Shown here: one piece after another, positions 41,780-59,900 of the stretch
How positions within the stretch are numbered: the first letter of the stretch is position 1
How the letters are laid out: every line of letters begins with the position of its first letter
From: Spirosoma lacussanchae
GTDB taxonomy: Bacteria; Bacteroidota; Bacteroidia; Cytophagales; Spirosomataceae
Direction of reading: 5' to 3'
Assembly (NCBI RefSeq): GCF_005870035.1
Contig: NZ_SWJG01000004.1
Location: forward strand, 316,604-380,603
Length of the DNA: 64,000 nt
Notes under the pieces: generated by a model
The model's database searches: none
What the model was told of the DNA's origin: nothing
The model's input: only the letters and a program-made list of their open reading frames with translations
Made by a program: the position numbers and the translations under genes

Positions 41780-44700
41780 ATGCGTACTATTCATACCGCT
41801 TCTTATACCCGCCTGACCACGATAGCTATATACTTATTGGTCCTTTTTTCCTGTACTGGCTATACATTACTTGCCCAATTACCTGCCGGATTTTCTAAAA
41901 GCGTTATTCAGGACAACTATACGGGGTCGGTTGGTATTTTGTTTTCTAACGACGGTAACCGCTTTTACGTTTGGGAGAAAAGCGGCCGGGTTTGGGTCTC
42001 AACCTGGAATGGATCGTCTTATGTACGGCAGAACACGCCTGTTTTAGACATCAGCGAAGAGGTTGGCGAATGGAACGACTTTGGTCTGCATAGCCTTTGT
42101 TTTGATCCTGACTTTGAGACCAACGGCCTGGTCTACCTGTTCTACACCGTTGATCTTCATCACGTACTATATTACGGTACTCCACAGTACAATAGCTCCA
42201 GCAATCAATACCACAACGCCACAATCAGCCGGGTAACCCGCTATCAACTACAGAACACAGCGGGCCTCTTAACTACCAACTATGCCAGCCGGACCGTACT
42301 TCTCGGCGAATCGAAAAACACCGGCATTCCGGTTACGTACGAGTCGCACGCGGGCGGTACGATTCTGTTTGGGAAAGACGGCACTTTGTTGGTATCAACC
42401 GGTGATGGTGCTCATCATGAAGGGGTTGACGTTGGTAGTCGATCAGAGACATACTTTCAGGCTTCGCTTAATTATGGGATGATGAGAGCCAACGAAAATG
42501 TCGGTGCGCTCCGATCTCAACTGGTCAATTCGCTATGTGGTAAAGTACTTCGGCTAGATCCTGCCACGGGCAATGGGGTACCGAGTAATCCATTTTATGA
42601 TGCCGCGAATCCACGTTCCCCCCAATCACGCGTCTGGACTCTGGGGCTACGAAACCCGTACCGAATGAGCCTCAAACCAAATACTGGGAGCATTGACCCC
42701 GCCGATGGGAACCCCGGCACCCTGCTGATTGGCGATGTCTGCTGGTACAAAATCGAAGATTTCCACGTTGTCGACAAAGCTGGCCTGAACTGCGGCTGGC
42801 CCCTCTACGAAGGCCTTGACCGCACTATATCCTATTATGGAACCAATGTTGCCAATCTGGACGAACCGGGGCAACCAACCTTCGAAAGCCTTTGCGTGCC
42901 GCCTACCTCCTTTATCGACAACCCCAATCCAACGCTGCGCCGTTTTACCCATTCAAGACCGGCGCTCGACTATAGCCACAGCACGGCTCAGACGCGGGTA
43001 CCCGCCTTTAGCGGAAGCACTCCGATAACCCGTGTTATTGGTACTACGGGTGCTCCGGCAGGAACATCGTTTTACGGCAATTGTATCATCGGCGGCCTTT
43101 ATTATACCGGAACCCAGTTTCCCGAAATTTACCGCAATACGTACTTCTTTGCCGATCATGGGCAGAACTGGATCAAAAGCCTCGACCTCCACGATGAGGG
43201 CGACCATGTCGTACATGAAGTAAGAAACTTTGCCGCCAGCAATTTTGACATTGGCATAGTCGATTTGAAGATGAACCCCCGCGACGGGTCTCTTTTTTAC
43301 GTTCGGGTGCAAGGAGTAATTTCAAGGATTAGCTATGGCGGTAACCAGCCACCAGTTGCCAATGCTTCCTCTACCACGCCTTATGGCACCTCGCCGTTGA
43401 GCGTTTCGTTTACCGGATCGAACTCGATTGACCCCGAGGGCTTACCACTTACTTATTCATGGGATTTTGGCGATGGTACGACCTCAACGGCTGCCAACCC
43501 GGTACATGTATTCGCCGACCCCAACGTGCGGGCCTATACCGTTACGCTGACCGTAAAAGATAATCTGAATCAGGTATCTATTCCTAAGCAGATTACGGTC
43601 TCGGTCAATAATACACCCCCAACGGTCGAGATCACCAATCCGGTAGCCGGCACTCTATATCCAATGAGTCAGGAAACCCCCTACCAGCTGCAGGCCAGTG
43701 TGACCGACACAGACCTAAGTAACGTGTCGTACGAATGGCGCGTATCGCTTGAACACAACAATCACACCCACCCAGAACCCGTACTAACCAGTGCTAACCC
43801 GACGATCTATATCTCGCCGGTTGGCTGCAGTCCTAACGAAACCTACTATTACTTAATCTCGGTGACGGTTACCGATAATGGTGGCCTCAAAGCGACTCAC
43901 TCGGTTACACTCTACCCAGATTGTAATTCGGCCAGTTCGCTGGTCACCAATGTCTCCGCTGTGCCCGAGCTGAATGCGGTGCGGGTTAACTGGGTTAACC
44001 CAACCGCCACATTCGATGAAGTGCTTGTAGCAGCCCGGGCCGAGATTGGATTCACGGATAGACCCACCGGCACTGCCTATGCTGCCAACACTAGTTTTAC
44101 AGGAAACGGCACCCCGATCGAAGGCGGTAAGGTTGTTTACAGAGGTATCGGTACGAACGTAACCATCACGAATTTAAACCCGTTGATTCAATACTATTTC
44201 AGAGTCTACACGCGGGTAGGAAATACCTGGAACGGGGGCGTAGAGGTCAGTTCAATACCTAACCTGCCGCCAGTTGCCTCTACCATTCAACCGCCTGCAG
44301 CAGCTACCGGTCAGGTGTATTCGTATGCCATACCAGCATTTACTGACCCTGAAAGCCAAACCCTGGCCTATACAGCCAGTGGTTTACCTGCCTGGCTGAG
44401 TTTCAACAGCACAAGCCGTATTTTGACGGGAACACCTACCCAGTCTGCCAGTTACACGATTACAGTCAGTGCGACTGATCCGGGAAGTTTGACCACTTCG
44501 GTACCGGTAGTTATCGTTGCCGGTCCGAATCAGGCGCCCGTAGCCCCTGCTTCTACTACCCAACTTGCGGAGACAACCCAGTTCTTCAGCTATACCGTAC
44601 CCGCCTTCACCGATCCCGAGGGAAAGTTATTGACCTATAGCGCTTCCGGATTACCTGGATGGCTCAATTTTAACACCTCGACTCGCCAGCTCTACGGTAC

Positions 44701-45268
44701 GCCTACCCAGGCAGGCTTCCACAGCGTCTCCATCCGGGCTACCGATCCATTGAGTTTGTTCTCTACGGTTATAGTGGGCGTTAGAGCCTTTGTTAATCAG
44801 CCACCGGTACCACCGACAATAAATGCTCAGACAGCAGAACTAGGCTACCTGTTTAGCTTTACCGTACCCGCCTTTACAGACCCGGATGGGCAACTTCTTT
44901 CCTACAGCGCCAGTGACGTACCAAACTGGCTGACGTTTACAAACACAAGCCGGGTATTAACCGGAACGCCCACCCAGGCGGGCAGCTACTCCGTTACTGT
45001 AAAAGCTACGGATCCCCGCAGTCTGTCAGCCTCGGTTCGGGTGGTGATTAACGCAGGCGTTTGTAGTATGGTTACCGTAAAAAACGGTAGCTGGAATGAC
45101 CCCTCGGTATGGTCCTGCAATCGGGTTCCTAACAGTGCCGATGCCGTACGGATTGAGCACCCGGTCAACGTACCCGATAACTACGCAGCTTCAGCGCTGA
45201 AAATAACGTTCGCAAGCGGTATAACCCTTCAAATGGGGCAAAACGCCCTAGTTTATTTTAGCCAGTAA
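41780..45268 (+). CDS. Secreted PQQ-type sugar dehydrogenase-like protein with PKD, Fn3 and Ig-like repeats
   Basis: 1162 residues. Signal peptide (LTTIAIYLLVLFSCTGYTLLAQ). Residues ~40-500 look like the glucose/sorbosone dehydrogenase beta-propeller (WTLGLRNPYRMSLKPNTG, HAGGTILFGKDGTLLVSTGD, CGWPLYEGL). A PKD domain follows (~522-610, TYSWDFGDGTT), a middle region and Fn3-like part (~610-828), then three Ig-like cadherin/He_PIG repeats (~830-1093; each has LPxWLxFxxxSRxLxGTPTQxxxY). The last ~67 residues form a small domain also present in the DUF1501 protein at 56732. It is probably cell-surface or secreted, perhaps oxidising a sugar; PQQ dependence is inferred from the fold only. Confidence 0.85.
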   Translation: MRTIHTASYTRLTTIAIYLLVLFSCTGYTLLAQLPAGFSKSVIQDNYTGSVGILFSNDGNRFYVWEKSGRVWVSTWNGSSYVRQNTPVLDISEEVGEWNDFGLHSLCFDPDFETNGLVYLFYTVDLHHVLYYGTPQYNSSSNQYHNATISRVTRYQLQNTAGLLTTNYASRTVLLGESKNTGIPVTYESHAGGTILFGKDGTLLVSTGDGAHHEGVDVGSRSETYFQASLNYGMMRANENVGALRSQLVNSLCGKVLRLDPATGNGVPSNPFYDAANPRSPQSRVWTLGLRNPYRMSLKPNTGSIDPADGNPGTLLIGDVCWYKIEDFHVVDKAGLNCGWPLYEGLDRTISYYGTNVANLDEPGQPTFESLCVPPTSFIDNPNPTLRRFTHSRPALDYSHSTAQTRVPAFSGSTPITRVIGTTGAPAGTSFYGNCIIGGLYYTGTQFPEIYRNTYFFADHGQNWIKSLDLHDEGDHVVHEVRNFAASNFDIGIVDLKMNPRDGSLFYVRVQGVISRISYGGNQPPVANASSTTPYGTSPLSVSFTGSNSIDPEGLPLTYSWDFGDGTTSTAANPVHVFADPNVRAYTVTLTVKDNLNQVSIPKQITVSVNNTPPTVEITNPVAGTLYPMSQETPYQLQASVTDTDLSNVSYEWRVSLEHNNHTHPEPVLTSANPTIYISPVGCSPNETYYYLISVTVTDNGGLKATHSVTLYPDCNSASSLVTNVSAVPELNAVRVNWVNPTATFDEVLVAARAEIGFTDRPTGTAYAANTSFTGNGTPIEGGKVVYRGIGTNVTITNLNPLIQYYFRVYTRVGNTWNGGVEVSSIPNLPPVASTIQPPAAATGQVYSYAIPAFTDPESQTLAYTASGLPAWLSFNSTSRILTGTPTQSASYTITVSATDPGSLTTSVPVVIVAGPNQAPVAPASTTQLAETTQFFSYTVPAFTDPEGKLLTYSASGLPGWLNFNTSTRQLYGTPTQAGFHSVSIRATDPLSLFSTVIVGVRAFVNQPPVPPTINAQTAELGYLFSFTVPAFTDPDGQLLSYSASDVPNWLTFTNTSRVLTGTPTQAGSYSVTVKATDPRSLSASVRVVINAGVCSMVTVKNGSWNDPSVWSCNRVPNSADAVRIEHPVNVPDNYAASALKITFASGITLQMGQNALVYFSQ

Positions 45269-56731: not shown

Positions 56732-58237
56732 TTAGCCGGTCATGCGTATCGAATACGGACCCGTAAACTTCAGCTGGCCAGCCACCTGCATACGTCGAAC
56801 GGTAATGTTACGATCCACGATCAGGGTATGGCCAGCGTTGATTTTTACGTATTCACTGGCAAACGGTACCCGTCCTACCGTCCAGCGGCCCGGTTCCTGC
56901 CAGCTTCCCGACGACAGGGTTTCTACCACGTTTGAAAAAAGAGATACGGTCGGGAAGCTGCGGGCGAGTATCGTGTTGGTGGTAGCCGGAGCCGTACCAA
57001 ACCAGTCGTTCAGAATATCCGAATAAACCCGGCGGAAATCGATCTGCATGGTCACTTCTTTGTTGCCAAACTGTCCGCTCAGGTTGGCCAGGTCAGGATT
57101 TTGGCCAATGGTCTGGTGTTTAACCCCCGAGCCGAAAACGAACATGGGCGCGGCCACGCCATGATCTGTCCCCTTCGAATTGTTGGAATTAGCCCGCCGG
57201 CCAAATTCAGAGAAGGTCATCCCGATAACCCGGTCTTCGGTACCCTGGAGGGCCAGGTCGCGCTGAAAGGTAGCGATGGCTTTGGCAACTTTTCCCAGCA
57301 ACATGGCGTGTTCTCCCTGGGTCACGTCGGTACTGTCGACCTGCCCCGAATGGGTATCGAACCCGTTCAGCGACACAAAGTAAATTTTTGACTTCATGCC
57401 CCCGTGAATAAGCCGGGCCACGATTTTGAGCTGATCGGCCAGGTAGTTTTTTTCGTACGACTCCGGATAAACAGCCAGGTTCCGGCCAGCCTCAGCCGCC
57501 CGCCTAATCTTGTCGGCGTAGCCAACGGCCAGGGTCTGCTGTTTGCGGATAAACGTAATCAGCTCGCCCGCATCGCCGGGTTGCTGTTCGCCCGGCGCCG
57601 GCGGATCTGTGCCAACGAGAGCGTAAAAATTGTCGGGATCGTTCAGTGCGATGGCCATCGATTGCTGGCTGCCCAGCAGGGCCGTTGAGGTTACGTAGCC
57701 GATCTGAATAGCCAGCGGGTCGTCCATCTGGGGATTCGGGTAGCTGGCCGGATAATCTGGGAACCGATTATCCAGATAGCGGCCCGCCCAGCCCGACGTT
57801 ACCAGTTGTTCCGAATCGGCGGCTGTCATCCAGATATCGGTCGATCGCGCGTGCGACTGGTCCGGGTTGGGGTAAGCCACCGAGTGAATTACCGTCAGTT
57901 TTCCGTCGTTATACAAATCCCGCATACCGGTCATGGCCGGATGAAATCCCGTTGTCGGATTACCGTCGAGGGTAAGCACCCGATTCTGCGGAATGGCAAT
58001 ATTGCTCCGGAGGGAATTATAGAGCGATAGCTGATCGAGCGGAATGACCGTGTTCAGGCCATCGTTGCCACCGTTCAGGTAGATAATGACCAGCACCCGA
58101 TCCGTATTGACGGCCGATGTCTGGAGCAGCGACTGCACCAGGGCCGACTGCCGGTTCATGGCTTTTAGCCCAAACCCGTCGAGCATGACCGGTGCCATAC
58201 TGGCCGATACGGCAGAAAGAAAGTTCCTACGGTTCAT
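56732..58237 (-). CDS. DUF1501 protein with C-terminal surface-type domain
   Basis: 501 residues. The N-terminus (NRRNFLSAVSASMAPVMLDGFGLKAM) is a Tat-type signal with RR. DUF1501 features follow: VLVIIYLNGGNDGLNTVIPLDQLSLYN, VRSTDIWMTAADSEQ, GFDTHSGQVDSTDVTQGEH and GMTFSEFGRRANSNNSKGTDHGVAAPMFVFG, a sulfatase/alkaline-phosphatase-like fold. The final ~65 residues (GSWQEPGRWTVGRVPFASEYVKI) form a separate domain also present at the end of the 1162-residue secreted protein. It is paired with the DUF1800 gene 16 bp upstream, as commonly seen in this phylum. The function of the pair is unknown. Confidence 0.88.
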   Translation of the reverse strand: MNRRNFLSAVSASMAPVMLDGFGLKAMNRQSALVQSLLQTSAVNTDRVLVIIYLNGGNDGLNTVIPLDQLSLYNSLRSNIAIPQNRVLTLDGNPTTGFHPAMTGMRDLYNDGKLTVIHSVAYPNPDQSHARSTDIWMTAADSEQLVTSGWAGRYLDNRFPDYPASYPNPQMDDPLAIQIGYVTSTALLGSQQSMAIALNDPDNFYALVGTDPPAPGEQQPGDAGELITFIRKQQTLAVGYADKIRRAAEAGRNLAVYPESYEKNYLADQLKIVARLIHGGMKSKIYFVSLNGFDTHSGQVDSTDVTQGEHAMLLGKVAKAIATFQRDLALQGTEDRVIGMTFSEFGRRANSNNSKGTDHGVAAPMFVFGSGVKHQTIGQNPDLANLSGQFGNKEVTMQIDFRRVYSDILNDWFGTAPATTNTILARSFPTVSLFSNVVETLSSGSWQEPGRWTVGRVPFASEYVKINAGHTLIVDRNITVRRMQVAGQLKFTGPYSIRMTG

Positions 58238-58253
58238 AGCAGATAGTCATAGC

Positions 58254-59900
58254 TCAGCAGACATGGTACTCCGCCATACGGAGTAGAAACTTCATCAGGT
58301 TCTGTAGCCGCCATAAAACGCCGTAACGACTTCCGGGATCGGCGGGATTACGTCGGTAATTGTTCCACTCGAATGTCCAGGACAGGCGCGGTATGCCCTG
58401 CATCATAATCGTATCGATAACAAAATCCTGCTGAGCCGTCGATAAGCCGGTCGCATAGAGATGCCGGGTAAATTCAGCCAGAATATCAACGCAGGTAATG
58501 GATGGCGTACCGCTCACGTCGGTGAAGTTGGGCTGTAGCCGCGTTACCCAGCCGAGCAGGTCGATACCTATTGTATTGCCAGGTTTCAGCTCCAGCCACC
58601 GCCAGATAAAGGCATCGGTCAGGTTACCCCGCAGCCCGATCGTAGTTGTATTGATCCAGAGTTTAGAAAAGCCCGTCTGGTAATAAGGATCGTAGCCAAA
58701 CACGGTGGGCTGTTCGAGCACGCCCATCTGCATACTATCCATCTGGTAATAGATGAAGTCGAAATATTTTCGGTAGGCGACGTAGTCGGTGGGCAGTGTC
58801 GGTACGGCCTGTTCGAAAAAACGCATGGCACCAATAACCAGGTCGGCGGGCGACTTGACCATAGCTCCCACGTTAGCGGTATCATAAAAGGCCTGGCTGG
58901 TCAGCAGCTTTTCAATCACCGGCCGTATGGCGAAGTTATTGGCCGGACTAGCAAAGAAGTCTGCCAGTGGACCGATGATAGTCGTCTCAACGGTTGGGGT
59001 AACGTTCGGATTCACATACCAGCGGTACAGCTTGCGGCAGATGAACCGGGGGCACTGGGGATGCCGCAACAGCATATCGACCAGGTCGGTCAGTTCAGCA
59101 TCGCCCGCCGATTGGGTACCCGGCTGCGATACGGCACGCCCCCTGATAACCGTATTGGCGTAATGAGCCGAAAATACTTTGTCCGTAGCATCGTGTAAAC
59201 TGTCTGTAAATGTTGTCGAGATGGTGGTGGAACCCGGTTCGTTGTAGTTGGTATGGCTCCAGCCCGTCAGCACCTTTGCCGCTGCCTTGACATCGTCTTC
59301 GGTATAATTCCGGTTCCCGGCAAAATCGGTTACACCAACCGTGAAGATCTCCTGTAGTTCGCGGGCGTAGTTTTCGTTCGGATGGCCGACCTGATTCTCG
59401 TCTCCGTTCAGAAATCGCAGCATGGCCGGTTCTTTGGTCATGTTGATGACGAACGTGCGGAAATTACCGAGGGCGCTGTTCCGGATTAACTTAATGTACT
59501 GGAACATGAACCGGTAATCGCCCACCACGTTGCGCGTCGCTACGAAATGGTTCTGCCAGAACAGCGCCAACTTATCCAGCAGACTGGGCGGAGCCGCCTG
59601 CGTAGTCATCACCTCGATCCATCGGTACCGGGCATAATGACCCAGGATAAAGTTACGATCGGCGTTAAAGGGCAGGCTCAGGTAGGGCTGAGCCGTTGTG
59701 GGCAGGTTTTCGTCCAGGTCGAGGGGTTCGGGCAGGTCATAATTCGCGTTGTTGATCAGTTGAAATACCGCCTGCTGCGCTGTTAATCCCGTAAAAGCTG
59801 TTATTTCGGCCTTTGTAGGACCAAAGGTGGCCCGTCGCAGCAGATGCGCGGCTGTCTGGGCGGTGAGCGGCTGAGTGTACGGGTCCAGAGGAGAGGGCAT
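58254..59900 (-). CDS. DUF1800 domain-containing protein
   Basis: 548 residues. Family features: start PLTAQTAAHLLRRATFGPTKAEITAF, LDKLALFWQNHFVAT, MLRFLNGDENQVGHPNENYARELQEIFTVG, VKAAAKVLTGWSH and FICRKLYRWYVNP, FGYDPYYQTGFSKLWINT. No signal peptide is visible at the chosen start, although DUF1800 proteins often act outside the cytosol. It is the first of a two-gene leftward unit with the DUF1501 gene (16 bp apart). The function is not known. Confidence 0.9.
   Translation of the reverse strand: MPSPLDPYTQPLTAQTAAHLLRRATFGPTKAEITAFTGLTAQQAVFQLINNANYDLPEPLDLDENLPTTAQPYLSLPFNADRNFILGHYARYRWIEVMTTQAAPPSLLDKLALFWQNHFVATRNVVGDYRFMFQYIKLIRNSALGNFRTFVINMTKEPAMLRFLNGDENQVGHPNENYARELQEIFTVGVTDFAGNRNYTEDDVKAAAKVLTGWSHTNYNEPGSTTISTTFTDSLHDATDKVFSAHYANTVIRGRAVSQPGTQSAGDAELTDLVDMLLRHPQCPRFICRKLYRWYVNPNVTPTVETTIIGPLADFFASPANNFAIRPVIEKLLTSQAFYDTANVGAMVKSPADLVIGAMRFFEQAVPTLPTDYVAYRKYFDFIYYQMDSMQMGVLEQPTVFGYDPYYQTGFSKLWINTTTIGLRGNLTDAFIWRWLELKPGNTIGIDLLGWVTRLQPNFTDVSGTPSITCVDILAEFTRHLYATGLSTAQQDFVIDTIMMQGIPRLSWTFEWNNYRRNPADPGSRYGVLWRLQNLMKFLLRMAEYHVC

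Follow-up and report, generated by a model that had tools for sequence, protein, structure and literature searches.

A domain of about 65 residues that closes two proteins of Spirosoma lacussanchae is mostly found at the end of proteins with export signals, takes the place of the type A T9SS tail on homologous cargo and was not seen together with that tail on any protein with a terminal copy (0 of 122), as shown here by sequence comparison. The fold predicted for the domain is a small beta-helix, unlike the fold of type A. In our judgement, there is an even chance that it is a lineage-specific T9SS sorting or anchoring tail, putatively of a new fold, that replaces the type A signal.

Two proteins of the window share their C-terminal end

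The window, a stretch of 64,000 nucleotides on contig NZ_SWJG01000004.1, contains two genes of interest. Protein A (41,780 to 45,268, plus strand) is a 1162-aa ORF with the following Pfam domains: GSDH at residues 52-342, PKD_4 at residues 522-600 and He_PIG in three stretches. It finishes with the terminal domain, copy A (45,062 to 45,265, plus strand), which extends to the end of the protein. An earlier description of protein A as a PKD/Ig protein is incomplete, since a glucose/sorbosone dehydrogenase (GSDH) domain comes first, followed by PKD and He_PIG. Protein B (56,732 to 58,237, minus strand) is a 501-aa ORF that matches Pfam DUF1501 (E 3.9e-19). Its start, MNRRNFL, is of the twin-arginine type as judged by eye, and its terminal domain, copy B (56,735 to 56,941, minus strand), lacks the WxC cysteine found in most other copies.

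Adjoining protein B is a DUF1800 protein (58,254 to 59,900, minus strand; Pfam DUF1800, E 2.1e-84) that has no such tail. A similar DUF1800 gene, as judged by eye, adjoins four other tail-bearing DUF1501 genes (L093, L129, L142 and L143). The DUF1800 protein of the window shows no obvious signal peptide by eye, and it might hitch-hike through Tat with its DUF1501 neighbour, which has a Tat-type start.

When proteins A and B are compared over their whole lengths using BLASTP, the best match is the shared end (E 7e-5, 30% over 46 aa). A profile of 64 copies, from which both window copies had been taken out beforehand, scores 82.8 bits for A and 54.4 bits for B in a search of the window. The only other match listed is a -3.3-bit stretch within A, and the same profile gave nothing above 0 bits after the translated window was shuffled 20 times. 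The initial annotation, made from the letters alone, had proposed an end of about 65 residues common to A and B, and this is borne out by the independent profile at both places.

The initial annotation had also suggested searching the whole genome (6.33 Mb in 23 contigs) using such a profile. The search yields six clear copies, the next match having an E of 0.5, and all six are at the end of their proteins. The carriers are A, B, a further GSDH protein, two metallopeptidases with GEVED (one of the reprolysin type, the other M43/reprolysin-like and with fn3 as well), and a 196-aa frame without a Pfam match that lies where a contig stops. As to whether all carriers are exported, the other point to be checked, an export signal is seen by eye in five of the six; the start region of the sixth is not visible. 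The closest named relative of copy A is found in Spirosoma sordidisoli TY50 (L177; 93% identity). For comparison, 49 matches to TIGR04183, the type A model, are listed in this genome, 36 of them above the cut-off, and none of the 49 places coincides with any of the six domain copies.

Terminal position is the rule in Spirosomataceae

The domain is present in 41 of 61 Spirosomataceae genomes, with 1 to 32 copies each, and is absent from the other 20. The named loci are mostly from Spirosoma and Rudanella, and also, among others, from Arsenicibacter, Persicitalea, Fibrella and Arcicella. Within Spirosoma the copy number is patchy, with none in genome G004 and six in the genome of the window (G000). 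At least six loci with Spirosoma-like copies (L154, L155, L162, L178, L193 and L194) come from a record labelled 'Flavobacterium sp. SUN052'; this record may be misnamed, or the copies may have been acquired.

As in T9SS sorting domains, the extreme C-terminal position is the rule, with exceptions. In the named loci, 62 of 67 copies are terminal and 5 are internal, these copies having been selected through a motif that lies in the domain's first half, which makes the sample less biased rather than unbiased; 65 of 69 such motif stretches passed a tblastn comparison with a terminal copy. Sixty fetched loci together with four own loci gave 64 terminal matches out of 70, in a sample that favours terminal copies, the fetched loci being high-scoring matches of a profile made from terminal copies. 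Among 133 distinct copies, 122 are terminal (at most 20 aa from the stop, and at most 2 aa in 100 of them) and 11 are internal. Ten of the internal copies are in Spirosomataceae-type loci, while the eleventh (L212) belongs to a Fulvivirgaceae protein. The sequence that follows the ten family-type copies appears by eye to be LamG-like, RHS-like or other, and none of these ten proteins was seen to have a type A end, more sequence having been added for the four that extend beyond their loci and L134 being seen only in part. One layout recurs in L110, L106, L197 and L209, namely an internal copy followed by a LamG-like domain (by eye) that reaches the C-terminus. In L147/L396, the internal copy lies within a protein that looks RHS-like by eye and whose frame is 2309 aa long.

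Export signals, cysteines and gene neighbourhood

Using a crude signal-peptide test, 85 of 105 complete terminal proteins pass compared to 129 of 345 neighbours, frames shorter than 250 aa and 11 proteins open at the 5' end having been left out. By eye, many of the 20 misses have either a hydrophobic start that ends in AQ or a twin-arginine start. The cargo (44 proteins) includes GEVED, fn3, reprolysin-type, M43 and M36 peptidases, SASA esterase, GH9 and SBBP.

The WxC cysteine is found in 114 of the 122 terminal copies. Of these, 78 have only an upstream Cys, 16 have only a CxC partner, 2 have both and 18 have neither. Fisher's test on these counts gives p 2e-8 (relatedness not corrected), and the simplest reading of the pattern is that the upstream Cys and the CxC partner are alternative partners of one disulphide, as would suit a domain that is exported and oxidised.

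The neighbouring genes were clustered in order to find recurrent partners, with neighbours of at least 250 aa taken from loci that are mostly about 7-12 kb long. No candidate for a dedicated shuttle gene is found among these clusters, the largest of which comprise four loci each and, by eye, resemble a sensor kinase, a DUF1800 protein and a response regulator. Likewise, no PorP/SprF-like gene was recognised by eye in the recurrent clusters of neighbours of this size. That no neighbouring gene recurs would be consistent with a general shuttle, PorV for instance, or with a partner encoded elsewhere in the genome.

Exchange with the type A tail on homologous proteins

Like type A (TIGR04183/PF18962), the new domain forms the last 70 or so residues of diverse exported proteins in T9SS-positive Bacteroidota and, in DUF1501 and other families, stands at the corresponding position of homologous proteins. 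Among 70 Spirosomataceae DUF1501 proteins, selected by score and frame length from 107 matching places, 17 end in the new domain, 45 in type A, 8 in neither and none in both. It should be noted that two of the eight 'neither' proteins are cut short where the contig or locus stops and that L309 looks like type A by eye, while the match in one of the 45 type A proteins (L299) stops 41 aa before the end. The genome of the window has three DUF1501 proteins: one with the new tail, one with type A and one with neither.

In a tree of the DUF1501 bodies, the 17 new-tailed rows fall on one side of a branch with an SH-aLRT of 100, one cut row included. The tree contains a single change between the new tail and type A; it lies between paralogue clades and is not repeated. 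Since the root is a midpoint root, the direction of the change is not proven. Genome G004 has no copy of the domain, and its best DUF1501 match (L262) has a type A end. This protein clusters with the type A paralogues, which means that the new-tailed paralogue is missing from G004 among the proteins examined, and that L262 does not represent a fresh swap.

For GSDH, 30 relatives were examined among 73 matching places: 9 end in the new domain, 4 in type A and 17 in neither. Neither tail is thus present on many GSDH proteins and on some of the DUF1501 relatives, so these families can do without a terminal module. Five of the GSDH 'neither' relatives (L354, L355, L356, L358 and L359) have another tail of about 70 aa with the pattern L.PGF....G.VF.A.IG.C, which is perhaps a third terminal module.

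A metallophosphatase with the new end and a type A protein share a 41% match over 509 aa that reaches both tails. In a screen for such junction swaps, 3 of 30 clusters of terminal-copy proteins match type A bodies up to both tails, a lower bound since 119 type A bodies were used. The three are DUF1501, the metallophosphatase and a third (L149 vs. L044) that possibly matches via shared repeats; the largest cluster in the screen, with 44 proteins, may itself be joined by shared repeats. In SASA-type esterases, the match to a type A protein covers the body and does not extend to the junction.

A type A tail hidden within the new domain was considered and ruled out. None of the 122 terminal-copy proteins matches a type A profile, home-made from 30 tails of the S. 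lacussanchae genome, and the domain does not match TIGR04183. The NCBIfam matches of 77 members include no T9SS model, which also sets the domain apart from type B and type C, described in PMC10202324 as alternative C-terminal T9SS signals beside type A. Furthermore, in contrast to type A, none of 62 terminal copies has a terminal lysine among its last residues.

The predicted fold is a small beta-helix

Copies A and B are both modelled by AlphaFold2 as the same small beta-helix, with pLDDT of 93.2 and 92.4, respectively. This differs from the type A tail, an Ig-like seven-strand sandwich according to PMC10202324. Ig-like folds are absent from the fold-match lists of both models, a listing that gives no proof of absence. 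The conservation pattern is as expected of a beta-helix core with about two rungs: large hydrophobic residues occupy positions 33/35, 39/41, 52/54, 60/62 and 68/70 (copy A numbering) in 90-100% of 74-77 sequences, and the residues between them are mostly polar.

Foldseek returns no significant match for either model (best E 1.6 and 0.9), the top match of both being amnionless (PDB 6gje). Using VIA, copy A superimposes on beta-helix 1 of 6gje over 60 residues (Z 5.4, 2.3 Å, 22% identity) and copy B over 58 residues (Z 6.1, 1.8 Å, 17% identity). The aligned stretch of the 6gje chain runs from residue 26 or 28 to residue 89, and the C-terminus of the models lies at the end of this stretch. Taken alone, a Z below 8 could reflect a common arrangement of strands, but the likeness is strengthened by weak matches to Pfam Amnionless in 20 of 66 members. 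The best of ten sequences reaches 21.2 bits against a cut-off of 30.4 for this family (PF14828), and neither A nor B matches it at E ≤ 1. Amnionless differs in being an animal membrane protein whose beta-helix is N-terminal.

Amnionless docks end to end on cubilin through the hydrophobic base of its beta-helix 1, formed by Met69, Leu71, Leu77, Leu79 and Phe85 (PMC6283879). By linear offset, these residues would fall near residues 52, 54, 60, 62 and 68 of our models. The hydrophobic residues of the last rung also pack on the rung above, thus their conservation is no proof of docking.

The initial annotation had wondered whether the domain is G8-like, and this is partly the case. Copy B matches positions 2-49 of the 124 positions of G8 (PF10162) with 15.1 bits, below the cut-off of 22.9, while copy A has no match, so that neither belongs to G8. 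In several members the first 52 positions match, which is under half of the G8 domain. Among eight terminal copies tested, one is above the cut-off (L119, 27.4 bits), as is the internal relative L217 (30.3 bits). Among solved folds, the closest one found is that of amnionless beta-helix 1. A sequence search of the PDB gave no strong relative; the stretch 899-960 of Flavobacterium RemA (PDB 8gl6) is a weak profile match (E 0.1) that is not significant alone, and it is internal to a large protein. Among the open-access papers listed on T9SS tails, on G8 and Bacteroidetes, and on DUF1501 and the T9SS, no title or abstract opening describes the domain.

Association with the T9SS in the wider phylum

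SprA is found in all 61 Spirosomataceae genomes, and so are type A tails. Given the presence of SprA throughout, the family offers no T9SS contrast, and a comparison of genomes with and without the T9SS is impossible within it. In a Bacteroidota sample, 128 of 395 genomes have a match to the domain. SprA is present in 127 of these 128 genomes vs. 176 of the 267 without the domain, a comparison that is not corrected for relatedness and in which most copies are internal. In the one domain-bearing genome that lacks SprA (G365), the domain match is near the threshold.

Only 2 of 27 loci outside Spirosomataceae have terminal copies (L218 and L241), the others being internal or cut. By eye, the internal copies are usually followed by more beta-rich sequence, and several of the frames have a type A-like end, L212 having been assessed with the type A profile. 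A further set of outside genomes from the same class has terminal copies in G151, G124 and G218; internal ones are seen in the first two of these and in the other genomes that were sampled. As terminal copies occur outside Spirosomataceae too, terminal use is not unique to this family but is its rule. The initial annotation had asked whether the domain is always last, which is the case for 6 of 6 copies in the S. lacussanchae genome and for 62 of 67 in the named loci, whereas copies in the wider phylum are mostly internal. The finding that it considered adverse, a domain mostly inside proteins, is therefore true of the wider sample and false in Spirosomataceae.

Possible functions of the domain

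Of the functions initially suggested, sorting or anchoring is favoured by the mostly terminal position of the domain, the export signals of its carriers and its occupation of the type A place, while carbohydrate binding is not. After Sec or Tat export, the module would be recognised at the outer membrane and would carry the protein through the T9SS translocon. More speculatively, the hydrophobic last rung, which is the C-terminus of the protein, might dock end to end on the beta-structure of a partner and so keep the protein at the surface, in the manner of amnionless beta-helix 1 on cubilin. Since the predicted fold differs from that of Ig-like type A, it should not be taken for granted that PorV recognises the domain. 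In F. johnsoniae, both the exit of proteins and their final place are directed by their tails (PMC12618676), and in this light it would make sense for another type of tail to exist alongside type A. The absence of the domain from 20 of the 61 family genomes, all of which have SprA, counts against T9SS sorting, as do the occurrence of only one DUF1501 switch, the internal copies and the tail-less relatives. A more specific proposal is tentative and somewhat doubtful, namely that the domain represents a fourth class of T9SS signal, a beta-helix exapted in one family from the first rungs of an internal beta-helix and recognised through end-to-end docking of its open, hydrophobic C-terminal base, as known for anchoring in amnionless and cubilin.

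The domain could instead serve only in docking or retention at the surface, the outer membrane being crossed by means of another signal or route. Such a role would accommodate the internal copies in Spirosomataceae and the resemblance of the predicted fold to a known docking domain, but a separate type A tail was found on none of the 122 terminal proteins and the exchange with type A places the domain where a secretion signal should be. We consider this unlikely. A carbohydrate-binding role has been suggested for G8 domains, and the partial G8 similarity, together with the part of the cargo that acts on carbohydrates, might point to a module that keeps enzymes on polysaccharide. This is improbable: the cargo also includes peptidases, DUF1501 proteins and phosphatases, and modules of this kind would not be expected to be strictly terminal. 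We give as little weight to a structural stub, i.e. a beta-helix remnant or cap without a targeting function that was spread by recombination at gene ends. In favour of a stub, the similarity to G8 covers only about two fifths of that domain, from its start, and elsewhere in the phylum the match is to the beginning of longer internal stretches; nevertheless, a stub would hardly be expected to reach 32 copies per genome on varied proteins, to keep a strongly conserved core and to alternate with a secretion signal.

If the domain is indeed a T9SS sorting or anchoring tail, then the T9SS, or a branch of it, accepts a signal whose fold is quite different; PMC10202324 names the recognition of different signals by the T9SS as an open question. 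The S. lacussanchae genome itself offers a pair of DUF1501 proteins, one with each tail type, that is suited to testing this. It would also follow that secretome predictions based on the known tails miss many proteins of Spirosoma, Rudanella and their relatives, in which a single genome may have up to 32 copies.
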